The translations under genes and the position numbers were made by a program. Shown here piece after piece: positions 6,061 to 58,983 of a DNA stretch of 64,000 nt. Every line of letters starts with the position of its first letter. Within the stretch, counting starts at the first letter, position 1. The notes below the pieces were generated by a model, which was not told the DNA's origin, did not search any database, and saw only the letters and a list, made by a program, of their open reading frames with translations. This stretch comes from Tepidibacter aestuarii (GTDB taxonomy: Bacteria > Bacillota > Clostridia > Peptostreptococcales > Peptostreptococcaceae), in contig NZ_OW235315.1 of NCBI RefSeq assembly GCF_934924865.1, positions 1 to 64,000 of the forward strand, written 5' to 3'.

Positions 6061-6223
6061 GTTTAAATTGTCGATGTTATTAAATTTTAATATTAAGGCT
6101 ATAAATAAAATCTTTAATAGCTTCAGATAAATATTATAATACATAAAACTTAAAAAAATATTAAATAATTCTTAAATTTATAATAAATATAAATTATAAT
6201 AAACTTAGGAAAGGAGTAGTCAT

Positions 6224-10038: not shown

Positions 10039-10068
10039 GAGCTGTGATTTCACAGCTCTTATTTTTTA
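10034..10068. terminator. intrinsic terminator between convergent genes
   Basis: AATAGGAGCTGTG pairs with CACAGCTCTTATT (10034-10056). T runs are present on both sides, so it can serve the GH18 gene and probably cotJC from the other strand. Confidence 0.8.
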
Positions 10069-10094
10069 CTCTATAGGAAACTATATGATTTTCA

Positions 10095-10206
10095 AATTGT
10101 GGATAGCATTGATGAAGAACTATACTTACAATTATTTTTGAGCAACGGAGCCCGTAGGATCGTTGGCGACATGAGTCAGTGCGTAGCGACTAGACGAATT
10201 TTTTAT
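10095..10206 (+). repeat. dispersed structured repeat A, copy 1
   Basis: The 3' part (10162-10202) is identical over 41 bases to 58942-58982 and closely matches the reverse complement of 32052-32124. It contains two potential hairpins, AACG...CGTT near 10144-10164 and AGTGC-GTA-GC.ACT near 10177-10191, and ends GACGAATTTT. It lies between the GH18 gene and cotJC with no open frame. No terminal inverted repeats or transposase are visible. Confidence 0.75.
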
Positions 10207-19497: not shown

Positions 19498-19545
19498 AAA
19501 AATTCCTCCTTAGTAAACGTGTAAATGTATAATATAATAGTCTAT

Positions 19546-19592
19546 TATAAAGCAAAACTTAATTCAGATGGAGTTTTTACGCCAACTGAATA
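19546..19592. repeat. palindromic repeat B, short copy
   Basis: 42 of 46 bases match 58724-58771. Both contain a hairpin, ATTCAG..TGG pairing with CCA.CTGAAT around TTTTTA. This copy lies in the divergent region upstream of the GDT1-like gene. No second hairpin follows here. Confidence 0.65.
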
Positions 19593-19673
19593 TCTCTATT
19601 ATTATATTCTATAAATAAATATATACAACCTTTTCTTATAAACAATAAATTATAATATATTGGAGTGATATAC

Positions 19674-22343: not shown

Positions 22344-24371
22344 ATGAAGATGTTTAATAAATTATTAAAATTTGATACTATACGATTTAAAATACTTACA
22401 ATTCCGTTAATAATTATGTTTATGATAATAACTACTATATCTTTTATAAATATAAACATCTCAAAAACAAGGCTGATAGACCAGATGGAGATCGATGGAA
22501 TTAATCTGGCAAATCAAATATTTAATCAAATTCAGAACAATGATGAATGTATAGAAATTATAAACGAGAGCATAGAAGATGACATAAGAAATATAGGTAG
22601 TTTTTTATCAGATGATTATTCAGCTATAAATAATGATTACTTAATTAATATAGCAAATACATTTAACGTAGATGAGATAAATGTTACAGATTCTAATGGT
22701 GATATAATTTATTCTAATCTTGAAAGTAGTATGGGAGCTCATTTTGGGGAGGATCATATATCATCTTCAGTTCAGTATGAGAATGAAGATGAGCTTATGG
22801 AAAACATAAGAAAATCAAGGGAAACTGATAATTATTACAAATATGGATATATAAAAGTACCTAATGGTGGTATGATACAGGTAGGTATACTTGCAAACAA
22901 AGTAGAAGGTCTAAAAAAAAGCCTTAGCATACAAAGCTTATTAGATGAACTTGCTGTAGAAGAGAATATAGAATCAGTATTTTTAGTAGGTAAGGATCAT
23001 ATCATAACAAATTCTTCTAAAAAAGAAGAAATAGGAACTGCAATAGAAAGTGAAAAATCCAAAAATGCCATAGATAAACAAGAGATTTATTCAGGTAAGT
23101 ATTATGATGATGATTTAAATAGATATGTATATGATATATTGGTACCTATGTACAAAGATGATATTAACGTAGGATCTTTAAATGTAGCTATTTCTATGGA
23201 TAATGTCAACAAGGCTGTATCTTCAAATATAAAGATGTCTATAATTATAGGCATATTAGCATTTACAATATCATCTATGATACTTTATACTATTTCGAAC
23301 AATATATTAAATGTTGTAAAAAATCTTGTTGATTCATCTCAAAGAGTAGCTAGAGGAGAGCTTATATATGATATAGATGTAAAGGCGAGTGACGAAACTG
23401 GGATACTATGTAATAACTTTAAGAATATGATAAATAGTCTTAAAACAATAGTAGACAATGTTAAAGTTCAAGCATCTGGTACAGATGATATGTCTAACCA
23501 ATTGACTTGTATATCGAAGGAAATGGCTTTAGGTATTGAAAGTATAGTATTATCTATACAAAATATAGCTGATGGAACAACGTCTCAGTCATGTGGTCTT
23601 GATAACATGAATGAAATACTTAATAATTTTACATACAAGCTTACGTGTATAATAGATGATATAAAGGATGTTGATTCTAATTCAAAAGAGATAAGCGCAA
23701 CTATAAGTGGTAGTAGTGAAAATATAGAAAAGGTTATATCGTCAGTTGAGAATGTTATAATAGTATTCCAAGAATTAATAGAGAAAATAACTATAGTTGG
23801 TCAAGACATAAATGAAATAAATAAAATAACTTCATTGATAAATCAAATAGCAGATCAGACTAATTTATTAGCACTTAATGCTTCTATTGAAGCTGCTAGA
23901 GCAGGAGAGCAGGGCAGAGGGTTTGCAGTAGTAGCTGATGAGATAAGAAAACTTGCAGAGCAAACTAAATATTCATCTCAAAATATAAATGAATTAATAC
24001 AAACAATATCAATTGCAACTGAAAGTATGATAGAGACTAGCGCAACAGTTAATACTGAGCTTTCAAACCAAAAAACAGATATAGATATAGCTATGGGTTC
24101 ATTTAATAAAACTATTTTAGGTATAAATGATATAATACCTAAAATAGATGAAATAAACACATCGGCTACAAGTCTTAATGATGAAAAAAATGTTATACTA
24201 AAAAAAATAGAAGAAGCATCTTCTATTGCACAAGAAATATCAGCATCAACGCAGGAAATATCAGCATCATCACAGCAAATGAGCGAGTCTGTAACACAGA
24301 TATCATCTACTGCTAGTGATTTAACTGACATGACTAAGAATATGAGTAATTATATAAATGAATTTAAATAA
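22344..24371 (+). CDS. methyl-accepting chemotaxis protein
   Basis: 675 residues: membrane helix 1 (about 15-37), an extracellular double-Cache-like sensor (about 40-290; [16 protein letters not shown] and a second repeat), membrane helix 2 (about 295-318), HAMP (about 320-370), and a coiled-coil signalling domain. The conserved hairpin tip reads [21 protein letters not shown]. It relays ligand binding to CheA/CheW. The ligand is unknown. GAAAAGGAG precedes the start. Confidence 0.92.
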
Positions 24372-24391
24372 AAAAATTCGTCTAGTTGCTA
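24371..24391 (-). repeat. fragment of dispersed repeat A (3' end only)
   Basis: The reverse complement reads TAGCAACTAGACGAATTTTT and matches the last part of repeat A copies 1 and 3 with one difference. It begins at the chemoreceptor stop codon. Confidence 0.5.
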
Positions 24392-24392
24392 A

Positions 24393-24427
24393 TAAAAAAG
24401 GCTGTATCGTTTGATACAGCCTTTTTT
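24393..24427. terminator. bidirectional intrinsic terminator
   Basis: AAAAAAGGCTGTATC pairs with GATACAGCCTTTTTT around GTTT, between the convergent chemoreceptor and psuG genes. Confidence 0.9.
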
Positions 24428-26450: not shown

Positions 26451-26540
26451 GCTTCTGTTTAGATTATAAACTTTTGTTTATGAAAAGTATAACATACTAT
26501 TTTTATTTTTTCAATAATAAATTTAAGTATACTTATATAC

Positions 26541-31060: not shown

Positions 31061-32053
31061 ATGCCAGTAAATTTAAAAGGAAGAAACTTTATAACATTAA
31101 AGGATTTTACACCAGATGAAATAAGGTATATGTTGGATCTATCTATGGATTTAAAAAATAAGAAGAGAGCAGGAATAAAGGGAGATTTATTAGAAGGAAA
31201 AAACATCGTTTTATTATTTGAAAAAACATCTACTAGAACTAGATGTGCATTTGAGGTTGCTGGTTTTGATGAAGGTGCTAATGTAACGTTTTTAACAAAT
31301 TCTCAAATGGGCAAAAAAGAATCTATCGAGGATACAGCTAAGGTTTTGGGAAGGTACTATGATGGAATTGAGTTTAGAGGATTTAAACAAGAAACTGTTG
31401 ATTGTCTAGCAGAACATGCAGGGGTTAGTGTGTGGAATGGACTTACTGATTTATACCATCCAACTCAGATACTTGCAGATTTTTTAACTGTAAAAGAGCA
31501 TGTAAATAAAAGATTTAATAAAATTAAGTTTGTATATGTTGGAGATGCTAGAAATAACATGGGTAACTCACTTATGATAGGTGCTGCTAAAATGGGAATG
31601 GAGTTTGTTGCGCTTGCACCGAAAGAACTATGGCCTTCTAAAGAGCTAGTAGATGAAATGAATGAGGTTGCTAAAGAAACAGGAGCTGTAATTAAGCTTA
31701 GTGAAAATGTTGATGATGTTAAAGGTGCAGATGTAATTTATACAGATGTTTGGGTGTCTATGGGAGAAGAAGATCAGTTTGAAGAGAGAATAAAATTATT
31801 AACTCCTTATCAGGTTAATATGGATATGATAAGAAAAACTGAAAATGATGATGTTATATTTCTTCATTGTCTGCCTTCATTCCATGATGAGAACACTTTA
31901 GTTGGTAAAGAAATATATGAAAAATTTGGACTTAAGTCGATGGAGGTTACAGACGAAGTATTTAGATCTAAGTACTCTAAGGTATTTGATGAGGCTGAGA
32001 ATAGAATGCATACTATAAAAGCTGTTATGGTCGCAACTATAGGTAATCTATAA
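31061..32053 (+). CDS. argF: ornithine carbamoyltransferase, probably catabolic
   Basis: 330 residues. Carbamoyl-phosphate binding motif STRTR (57-61), HPTQ in [12 protein letters not shown], ornithine-site DVWVSMG, and the catalytic HCLPSFHD loop (about 268-275). Between arcA and arcC it should work in the phosphorolysis direction (citrulline plus phosphate to ornithine and carbamoyl phosphate). The symbol arcB is equally suitable. It starts 35 bases after arcA with a TAGGAGG site. Its stop is followed at once by a copy of repeat A. Confidence 0.95.
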
Positions 32054-32165
32054 AATTCGCTTTATGCTACGCATAGCTCATGTCGCCAACGAGTCCTACG
32101 GGCTCCGTTGCTCAAAATAGTTGATAATATAGTTTTTTTATCAATGTAATTTGCAGATTAAAAAG
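32052..32165 (-). repeat. dispersed structured repeat A, copy 2
   Basis: On the minus strand it reads from about 32165 to 32052 and parallels copies 1 and 3. The shared end of the element lies at 32052-32117, and a less conserved part (CATTGATAAAAAAACTATA) continues to about 32165. The second hairpin here is TATGC-GTA-GCATA, whereas copies 1 and 3 have AGTGC-GTA-GC.ACT. It begins at the argF stop codon and splits the arc operon. Confidence 0.7.
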
Positions 32166-32203
32166 CATATAATTCCTATACAATAAAAAGGGAGGCTCTG
32201 TTT

Positions 32204-37430: not shown

Positions 37431-37588
37431 GATTTATTCGAAAGCTAAAAGTTCTAAATTTTCATTCTTTTAAGGCTAAAGATAAGAACTTAACAGATTC
37501 TAAATTAAGTTTCACTTTATATAAATTTAAATATAGTATAATATATTGTATAATGAGAGAAGTATGTTTTTATAGCTAAAGAAATTAT

Positions 37589-37626
37589 AACATGAGCTAT
37601 GCTATAGAATAAAACGAATTTTTTAT
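37589..37626 (+). repeat. degenerate copy of dispersed repeat A
   Basis: ACATGAGCTATGCTATAG, followed by AATAAAACGAATTTTTTA, parallels the last 40 bases of copy 2 (ACATGAGCTATGCGTAGC, then ATAAAGCGAATTTT). The second hairpin survives as CTAT-GC-ATAG and the first is missing. It ends about 20 bases before ispE, close to its ribosome site. Confidence 0.45.
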
Positions 37627-39197: not shown

Positions 39198-39232
39198 AAG
39201 TCCTAAAATTTTAGGACTTTTATTTTTTTTTT
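39196..39232 (+). terminator. intrinsic terminator after the GntR gene
   Basis: AAAAGTCCTAAAA pairs with TTTTAGGACTTTT, then T10. Confidence 0.9.
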
Positions 39233-39332
39233 ATGTATTTAAATTCGGTTTTGGGAAAAATTATATATAGACATACTAGATTGTATAGAAGTTTATATCT
39301 GAATTAAGTTTGGCTTTATAGGAGTTGATACG

Positions 39333-46056: not shown

Positions 46057-46134
46057 TTAAAATAAAATATAATCAAAAAGGTAGTATATAGCATATAATT
46101 ATAAATAACATATATTTAGAAAGAAGGTGCTATT

Positions 46135-51959: not shown

Positions 51960-52252
51960 TAATAAAATTAATACATTTGTAATATATATTAATTAACAAA
52001 CTAAATAAATAGGAAATAGCCTATTAGCTATCATTGTGTAACTAGTATTCGATGGGATATATAAGTTATATTGTGAAGTATAGTTAAATCACGGCATAGT
52101 AAGGGAACTATGAACCTTTACTTTGCCGTGATTTTTTTTGTATCTAAGAAAATTATATGCATTTCAACTTGTGAACAATTTAAAGTAATAAAATGAATAG
52201 CTTGTACATAAAAATTAAACATAAATAAATAAAAAAAATAGGGGGGGGAAAA
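51960..52252 (+). promoter_or_regulatory. candidate regulatory leader or small RNA before the propionate genes
   Basis: The 390-base gap after ftsH holds no open frame. It can form AATAGG/CCTATT (52008-52025), a wide TAACT/AGTTA stem (52039-52068), and a GC-rich terminator at 52088-52139, 113 bases before the next gene. The layout fits an attenuated leader or a short independent RNA. No T-box, cobalamin, c-di-GMP, SAM or fluoride riboswitch core was recognised. A clear promoter was not found. Confidence 0.4.
52088..52139 (+). terminator. terminator hairpin upstream of the AspT-type gene
   Basis: ATCACGGCA (52088-52096) pairs with TGCCGTGAT (52124-52132), extended inside by AGTAA/TTACT, and followed by T8. 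It is distinct from the ftsH terminator 200 bases earlier. Confidence 0.8.
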
Positions 52253-57800: not shown

Positions 57801-58733
57801 ATGGATCTAATAAAAAGTTTATTAGAAGGAAATAAGCGAGCTTGTGCTAGGCTTATTTCCATAATAGAAAACGAACAAGAAGGTTATTTTAATATATTAA
57901 AAGACATACATAAGAATACAAAAGGAGCTTATGTAATAGGCATAACAGGCCCTCCGGGAGCAGGAAAATCAACTTTAACTGATAAATTGGTAAAAAAACT
58001 TAGAGAACAGGAGCAAAAGGTTGGCATTATAGCAATAGACCCAACTAGCCCCTTCTCTAAGGGAGCTATACTTGGAGATAGAATAAGAATGAGTGATTTG
58101 AATTTAGATCCAGGAGTATTTATAAGGTCAATGGGAACTAGAGGTTATTTAGGAGGCTTATCCAAAGCTACTTATGGTGCAATAAAAGTTATGGACGCCT
58201 ATGGATGTGATTATATATTTGTTGAAACTGTAGGGGTTGGACAATCGGAGGTTGATATAGTTAAAACTGCTGATACTACAGTTATGGTTATGGTACCTGG
58301 TCTTGGAGATGATATACAAGCTATAAAAGCAGGAGTGATGGAAATTGGAGATGTATTTGTTGTAAATAAAGCAGATAAAGAAGGTGCTAAGAGAACTTCA
58401 CTTGAGATAGAGATGATGTTAGATTTTAAGAAGGATTGGGATTTTAGACCTCCTGTTACAATGGCTGTTGCAAATGATGGAAGTGGAGTAGATGAATTAC
58501 TTCAAAATATTATAAATCATAAAGATTATCAGGAAAAAAATGATGTGTTAAATAGAAAGGTGCTTCAGAGAAATAAATCTGAGATAAGAGAGATAATACA
58601 TAGAAAAATAGAAGATAAAATTCAAAATATACAAAATGAAAAAGAAGTTGAGGGTATGATAATCAAGACATTAAGTAAAGAAATTGATCCTTATACTGTG
58701 AGTGAAAAAATATTCAATAAGCTTATAAAGTGA
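57801..58733 (+). CDS. meaB: MeaB/ArgK-type G-protein chaperone of the mutase
   Basis: 310 residues. P-loop GPPGAGKST (50-58), the base-recognition NKADKEGAK (about 193-201), and FVETVGVGQSEVDIV (switch region). It uses GTP to load and protect adenosylcobalamin in the mutase. The TGA stop at 58731-58733 lies within the first bases of palindromic repeat B, so the last residues may have been set by that insertion. Confidence 0.93.
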   Translation: MDLIKSLLEGNKRACARLISIIENEQEGYFNILKDIHKNTKGAYVIGITGPPGAGKSTLTDKLVKKLREQEQKVGIIAIDPTSPFSKGAILGDRIRMSDLNLDPGVFIRSMGTRGYLGGLSKATYGAIKVMDAYGCDYIFVETVGVGQSEVDIVKTADTTVMVMVPGLGDDIQAIKAGVMEIGDVFVVNKADKEGAKRTSLEIEMMLDFKKDWDFRPPVTMAVANDGSGVDELLQNIINHKDYQEKNDVLNRKVLQRNKSEIREIIHRKIEDKIQNIQNEKEVEGMIIKTLSKEIDPYTVSEKIFNKLIK

Positions 58734-58866
58734 AACTTAATTCAGGTGGAGTTTTTACTCCAACTGAATTTCTAGCTGAACTAATCCAGAAGCTGTTAAG
58801 TTCTCATCTCCAGTTTTTAGAGGATGGAGTCTTAGAACTTTTAGCTTTCGGATAAAGTGAAACTTA
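58723..58866. repeat. palindromic repeat B, long copy
   Basis: Starts TATAAAGTGAAACTTAATT and repeats AAAGTGAAACTTA again at about 58854-58866, bracketing the element. Inside are the hairpin ATTCAGGTGGAG/CTCCAACTGAAT, AGCT...AGCT near 58773-58793, and AAGTTCT/AGAACTT (58797-58839). Such stacked hairpins resemble the ends of IS200/IS605-type elements, but no transposase or TnpB remains, so that is only one hypothesis. Confidence 0.6.
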
Positions 58867-58875
58867 GAATTTTTA

Positions 58876-58983
58876 TTTTGCTGATAACTTGTTAAGATAG
58901 CTACACTTGCAACTATTTTAAGCAACAAAGTCGTGAGACTTGTTGGCGACATGAGTCAGTGCGTAGCGACTAGACGAATTTTA
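58876..58983 (+). repeat. dispersed structured repeat A, copy 3
   Basis: 58942-58982 is identical to 10162-10202. In the first hairpin AACA(A)AGTC-GTGA-GACTTGTT replaces the AACG/CGTT form of copies 1 and 2, so both arms changed together. It lies directly upstream of the epimerase gene. Confidence 0.75.

Follow-up and report, generated by a model that had tools for sequence, protein, structure and literature searches.

A dispersed, gene-free repeat of Tepidibacter with two paired right-end hairpins, inserted behind T-runs and often behind terminators

Results and Discussion

Copies of the repeat in the Tepidibacter aestuarii window

The window analysed here, that is, the whole 64,000-nucleotide stretch of T. 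aestuarii DNA, contains five sites of one repeat: three copies, a degenerate copy and a 3' fragment. All five are at the places given in an earlier note, made from the letters alone, and their ends have since been corrected. On re-measuring all copies, the true element was found to span from the first base past a left T-run to the final T of a right T-run. Copy 1 (10068–10204, plus strand) starts with an A directly after the T-run of a Rho-independent terminator (GAGCTGTGATTTCACAGCTC plus T-run, 10039–10067, plus strand), which is its insertion target; another Tepidibacter genome, G003, has the same terminator without the insert. The right part of copy 1 carries two hairpins on the plus strand, H1 (GCAACGG...CGTTGGC, 10142–10167) and H2 (GTCAGTGC-GTA-GCGACTAGAC, with an unpaired A on the 3' arm, 10175–10195), and closes with a T-run at 10199–10204, also on the plus strand. 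Copy 2 (32052–32184, minus strand) runs counter to its neighbouring genes for ornithine carbamoyltransferase and carbamate kinase, the target being a T-run opposite the ribosome-binding site of the kinase gene; this site is empty in G003 and occupied by a copy in G001. Copy 3 (58875–58982, plus strand), shortened in its left part, has counterparts at the same place in G003 and G001 and lies directly upstream of a methylmalonyl-CoA epimerase gene and directly behind a repeat of a second family, family B.

The degenerate copy (37572–37624, plus strand) has suffered an internal deletion that joins about 25 nt of the left end to CATGAG...GAATTTTTT. The 3' fragment (24370–24393, minus strand) is a bare right-end remnant directly behind a terminator T-run; G002 has no remnant there and G001 has a longer one. 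A covariance model, R1, built from 27 copies that include copies 1, 2 and 3, recovers these three with E values of 3e-34 to 6e-27 and adds a single weak match in the window, a possible left-end fragment at 52136–52201 (plus strand; 22 bits, E 0.028). The sequence also bears out what the earlier note said of the variation among copies: copies 1 and 3 have 41 identical bases in common (GTTGGCGAC...GAATTTT), H1 switches from AACG/CGTT to AACA/TGTT in copy 3, and H2 varies between copies.

Family B (ATAAAGTGAAACTTAATTCAG...GGATAA, up to about 130 bp long here) is itself dispersed in the window, at 58723–58869, 37433–37507, 19545–19595 and 39297–39320. It too differs in presence between species, with extra copies in G003 at window positions 6202 and 33141 and in G002 at 46105.

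Abundance in Tepidibacter genomes

A covariance-model search of the genome and its relatives, as had been proposed, revealed many further copies in four Tepidibacter genomes. Among the best 150 candidates per genome, R1 matches at E ≤ 0.1, partial copies included, number at least 135 in the source genome G000 (3,666,533 bases, chromosome C1 3,628,320), at least 148 in G001, at least 97 in G002 and at least 149 in G003; for G000, the 150 scored were the best 150 of 6807 first-look candidates. The repeat is a dispersed family of about 140 bp, without a gene, present at about 100 or more copies per Tepidibacter genome. With copy 1 as the query, blastn gave 42 matches at E ≤ 1 across G000, and 8 copies in 264 kb of this genome, which fits about 110 per genome. 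These blastn and model counts greatly exceed chance. The 10-mer GACGAATTTT from the right end is uninformative alone (7 matches with at most one mismatch against 5.1 expected). A strict-pattern scan of named genomes returned 26 stretches, 19 of them in Tepidibacter mesophilus; the other 7, in unrelated taxa, are without hairpin H1 and were taken as chance.

Longer variants of about 192 bp also occur, four in G000 (1322181, 1447299, 1484282 and 2853123, recognized by length only) and two in G001 (L110 and L060:3993-4185). In L110 and L060, the H1 module is present twice, joined via a TTTT stretch, suggesting that modules may recombine at T-runs.

Filled and empty sites and the insertion target

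Copies differ in presence between sister species. G000 and G003 align collinearly across most of the stretch compared, mostly at about 85–93% identity; copies 1 and 2 of G000 are absent from G003, the G003 insertions B48000 (window position 39230), B266208 and B147211 are absent from G000, and so is a G001 insertion at window position 26532. In the three clearest cases (B266208, copy 1 and B48000), the element starts right after a T-run and the right flank resumes at the end of the empty-site T-run. At B266208, the empty site reads GGGCTATTTTTATACCC and the filled one GGGGCTATTTTTTTACTC...GCGAATTTTTATACTC; at copy 1, the corresponding sequences are CTCTTATTTTTTATTTTAATATA and CTCTTATTTTTTACTCTATAGG...GACGAATTTTTTATACCTAATATA. 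Junctions are less clean at copy 2, B147211 and the G001 copy, where the surrounding sequence has diverged, and some other G003/G000 pairs have a decayed or shortened copy at the same place rather than an empty site. The earlier note had raised the idea of a mobile miniature element, which copy number, empty sites and identical copies in relatives now support; it had overlooked the target, the end of T-runs that often belong to terminators.

Calling terminators by an energy-and-distance rule, we found a terminator-like hairpin ahead of 46 of 96 copies, compared with 137 of 1226 control T-runs, defined as runs of at least five T followed by A in 264 kb (Fisher p 3e-17). The 96 copies comprise L013 and what is left of 104 matches after removal of 7 duplicates and 2 weak matches, and in 11 of them the rule could find no left T-run. 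Targets other than terminators include the T-runs opposite ribosome-binding sites entered by copy 2 and B147211. Several copies, in G000 and in relatives, sit directly behind the right end of another, as in the row of three at 3311153–3311577 of G000. Such tandem insertions indicate that the right end, with its hairpin and T-run, itself serves as a target. As for orientation, 50 of 58 listed copies in G000 lie along replication, as genes mostly do, so this bias is not separable from gene direction; the tally uses G000 alone, since the G003 list contains a site of another repeat (3708100).

Ends of the element

The earlier note saw no terminal repeats, and terminal inverted repeats are indeed absent, the left end reading ANNN-TATAGGAAA and the right end GACGAATTTT. 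Recent copies do not show a target duplication of fixed length, since the T-runs on the left and right differ in length and the next base is usually independent; two possible exceptions are L110 and L241, in which the same base (G and C, respectively) follows both T-runs, as would fit a short target duplication. Near-identical copies at 14 places in genome G055 are informative here (33 places were found, of which 10 unparsed, 4 duplicated and 5 misread at the left were left out). Their left T-run ranges from 3 to 8, while the right T-run is 7 in 11 places and 6 in 3, and the base after the right T-run is A in 12 of 14 and C in 2 of 14. The constant right and variable left T-run show that, in G055, the right T-run is part of the element and the left one part of the target.

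The first 5 to 16 bases of the left end differ among otherwise identical copies (L200, L214 and L215). At least three short copies that keep left-end sequence are internal deletions (37572–37624 of the window, L058:2993-3101 and B106801), several others being undecidable.

Pairing and folding of the right-end hairpins

In 78 aligned right ends and 18 pairs, with the out-of-register row L145 dropped, 1243 of 1404 cells are Watson–Crick, whereas shuffling the partners, which ignores relatedness, gives 1160 ± 5.3, and none of 500 shuffles reaches the observed value. Several pairs show changes on both sides, namely G-C/A-T in H1, G-C/C-G/A-T in H2 and T-A/C-G at the base of H2. H1 and H2 therefore show compensatory pairing, and this covariation sustains the earlier proposal of selection on structure. 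There are 16 G.T and 50 A.C cells, and 13 of each once four badly aligned pairs are removed; this equality at well-aligned pairs gives no sign of the wobble tolerance of RNA.

Folding with DNA parameters places both H1 and H2 in the minimum-energy structure of copies 1 and 3; RNA parameters do so for copy 3 only. The DNA folding energy is not clearly beyond shuffles in seven of eight folds, the exception being L026 (z -3.1; its RNA z is -2.1). RNA folding z scores range from -2.13 to +0.11 for three whole elements and from -0.32 to +1.34 for five right-end modules. At the gathering score, neither the window nor 10 loci from relatives match Rfam, and only chance matches below that threshold were seen, at copy 1.

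These results bear on the possibility that the repeat is a structured RNA or regulatory module kept for the benefit of the host and dispersed secondarily. The conserved hairpins with their compensatory changes would suit such a role, as would the position of some copies close upstream of a start codon with a ribosome-binding site (copy 3; L015, L018, L027 and L029). Against it stand the lack of an Rfam family and of a G.U excess, RNA folds that are mostly no more stable than shuffles, sites that differ between sister species and the decay of some orthologous copies. We consider a functional RNA highly improbable, and this part of the earlier reading is not supported.

Related forms in other genera

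We surveyed 60 genomes, all inferred to belong to the Peptostreptococcaceae from the lineage given for Paraclostridium and the placement of Tepidibacter. R1 has a match at E ≤ 0.001 in 35 of them and at least three matches in 28, spanning 12 genera, so the repeat is abundant across a bacterial family. Outside Tepidibacter, sequences were read in 10 genomes from 7 genera, 25 of 28 loci being readable and 3, shifted by contig ends, being left out. Related forms of about 110–145 bp with the same core occur in these seven other genera of the family: the readable loci carry the core in closely similar form, GAGCAACGGA..TCGTTGGCGACATGA.. hairpin ..GAATTTTT, and, judged by eye, mostly lie behind a terminator-like hairpin. 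A long hairpin occupies the left part in five genera (g8, g9, g10, g12 and g15), and its two arms have changed in step, as in AAGGAAATTATA..TATAATTTCC and AAGGTATTATAA..TTATAATACC; in Tepidibacter the left hairpin is weak, and none is predicted there. H2 shrinks in relatives to as little as GC-GAA-GC and AC-GAA-GT. Hairpins with a GAA triloop of this type are very stable in single-stranded DNA.

In genome G071, a draft of 420 contigs and 94% completeness, two copies match each other at 115 of 115 bases. Plasmids of Paraclostridium bifermentans carry the relatives' forms (4, 4 and 7 records for the forms searched), and the Tepidibacter form has no match in the plasmid records searched. The phage records searched likewise gave no match to the element, and the 6 exact matches to its 17-base core in viral contigs are all without the flanking hairpin.

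Candidate mobilizing enzymes

Y1 transposases do not track the element: they are matched in 16 of 28 genomes with at least three elements and in 14 of 32 others (p 0.44), and the element-rich genomes G001, G047, G057 and G071 have no Y1 match. No element was found by R1 (E ≤ 1) in 92,926 bases made up of 29 Y1 loci, each about 3 kb long, a search in which the model is less sensitive outside Tepidibacter. Pairing left with right ends over 826,755 bases brought up no autonomous copy; in the six end spacings above 260 bases, a right end had been paired with the left end of a neighbour that has its own right end. An autonomous partner with a Y1 TnpA and the same ends was likewise absent from the part searched. 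TnpB (PF07282) is absent from G000, and inspection revealed no A-rich guide beside a hairpin foot able to read the T-run. The sole Y1 match in G000 (L031, 2038209–2041352) is a broken RAYT-like frame of 118 aa, that is, of the REP-associated Y1 type, with no element near it.

Six IS200-type elements of G004, G020 and G003 (L220–L225) meet their left flank in T-rich sequence that ends in TTG, and two or more of them lie directly behind terminators.

Mobilization by one particular IS200 element of the sister genomes (L066, L185 and L186) was also considered. Among the six IS200-type elements compared, L223 and L224 lie behind a terminator T-run and L222 behind a hairpin-like stretch, and the IS200 left end is similar to that of some element copies (TTTTATTGTAT..AGGAA). 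This likeness is not above chance, since 29% of 3083 control T-run sites score at least as high as the median element and 0.1% at least as high as the top one, 87 elements having been tested (the G003 form gives 33% and 0.2%). The right end of the IS200 element, compared in G003, G004 and G020, differs from that of the repeat, and many element-rich genomes are without any Y1 match. We regard this route as very unlikely.

Retroposition, in which a U-ended element RNA would be reverse-transcribed into T-runs in trans, either in a SINE-like manner or as a satellite of class C group II introns, draws on several observations. Intrinsic terminators are insertion sites for class C group II introns (PMC4424553), and the one group II intron with reverse transcriptase in G000 (L099, 1377917–1378537) sits immediately after the T-run of a terminator. 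An RNA ending in U could base-pair with the A-run across from the target T-run, and the variable first bases of L200, L214 and L215 and the bare 3' end behind a terminator at 24370–24393 would also fit. Reverse transcriptases (RVT_1), however, do not track the family either, being matched in 10 of 28 element genomes and 16 of 32 others (p 0.31). Six element-rich genomes, G004, G010, G047, G057, G059 and G071, have no match, including G071 with its identical copies, for which later loss or assembly gaps are possible. The only reverse transcriptase of G003 (L102, 1958020–1958616), beside a formylglycine-enzyme-like gene, looks, on inspection, like that of a diversity-generating retroelement. In addition, three or more short copies have lost internal sequence and are not truncated at the 5' end. 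On balance, retroposition appears unlikely. G055 shows the most recent-looking copies of any genome; its 7 Y1 matches and single reverse transcriptase match leave both enzymes as possibilities there.

Ten genomes with at least three R1 matches have neither a Y1 nor a reverse transcriptase match (G011, G016, G042, G046, G047, G052, G057, G066, G068 and G071; of these, G047, G057 and G071 were read as sequence). This leaves room for another class of DNA recombinase (tyrosine, serine, DEDD or a family-wide host protein) that would join two hairpin-adjacent T-runs, and a crossover between the right T-run and the target T-run accounts for both junctions. No gene of this kind is linked to the ends in the 826,755 bases paired for ends, and we regard such a recombinase as rather doubtful.

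Proposed mechanism

The family combines an orientation-specific left end and two small conserved right-end hairpins with the absence of a gene. We give about an even chance to its being a non-autonomous, strand-asymmetric family of mobile DNA, about 110–145 bp long, that inserts 3' of T-runs, preferentially those of Rho-independent terminators, and is moved as single-stranded DNA by an HUH/Y1-type enzyme acting in trans. Single-strand (HUH-like) transposition is favoured but unproven. It was chosen for the anatomy: the ends are asymmetric, the hairpins contain unpaired bases, insertion follows a short target and there is no regular duplication. TnpA of the IS200/IS605 family binds small subterminal hairpins and uses single-stranded circles (PMC6006769).

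Under single-strand transposition, the element would move as folded DNA, and the endonuclease would cut after the T-run both at the right end of the element (hairpin, GAA and T-run) and at the target (terminator hairpin and T-run). The target T-run would then be joined to the 5' end of the element, mostly an A, and the right T-run to the base past the target T-run. The 3' end of the element, a hairpin with a T-run, resembles its target. The enzyme may have been lost in many genomes. Landing behind a terminator spares both that terminator and the gene ahead of it, a possible explanation for the high copy number.

The DNA folds of copies 1 and 3, which contain H1 and H2, the reduction of H2 in relatives to the GAA forms and the seven Y1 matches of G055 are in keeping with single-strand transposition by an HUH/Y1-type enzyme. 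Against it, no Y1 gene tracks the family, the Y1 loci searched are element-free, no guide was seen and G071 has no Y1 match yet holds identical copies; moreover, folding is mostly not beyond shuffles, and L110 and L241 fit a short target duplication. A bolder reading is that the family represents an undescribed class of mobile element whose 3' end mimics an intrinsic terminator, which uses terminators genome-wide as safe landing sites and which is moved by an unrecognized enzyme common in the Peptostreptococcaceae via single-stranded DNA or a U-ended RNA; we put this forward tentatively, as possible though not probable. With its preference for terminator T-runs, the family is a clean case in which a bacterial safe-harbour strategy can be tested, and identifying the mobilizer, which tracks neither enzyme class tested, might reveal a new mechanism of transposition or a tool for making insertions in clostridia.

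Comparison with known systems

Text searches of open-licence papers for the core sequence and for clostridial repeat terms showed no description of the family. The closest parallels are with miniature elements derived from IS200/IS605, also called palindrome-associated elements. Like the present family, these have no inverted terminal repeats, carry strand-specific hairpins near their ends and insert 3' of a short target without regular duplication, L110 and L241 being the exceptions here. Subterminal hairpins at both ends are a further likeness to IS200/IS605, matched here by H1 and H2 at the right end and by the long left hairpin of five other genera. Unlike those miniature elements, the present family has no linked tnpA that we found, no tnpB in G000 and no visible guide for the T-run; it has two side-by-side hairpins at its right end, and its target is a T-run instead of a tetra- or pentanucleotide.

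REP/REPIN sequences, with their TnpA-REP (RAYT), resemble the family in their many intergenic copies, small imperfect hairpins and possible single-strand mobilization. They differ in size, being 21–65 nt compared with an asymmetric unit of 140 bp here, and in target, here a T-run; G000 has only the broken RAYT-like frame L031, away from any element. Class C group II introns likewise insert in one fixed orientation immediately after intrinsic terminators, whereas the 140 bp element has no ribozyme domains and no reverse transcriptase, an enzyme whose genes do not track it. Classical MITEs and the pneumococcal BOX and RUP elements (PMC3049150) are likewise short, non-coding, dispersed and intergenic; the present family is set apart from them by having neither a terminal inverted repeat nor a regular target duplication. 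Small non-autonomous repeats are already known in bacteria, and the present anatomy and target, taken together, match none of the families tested.
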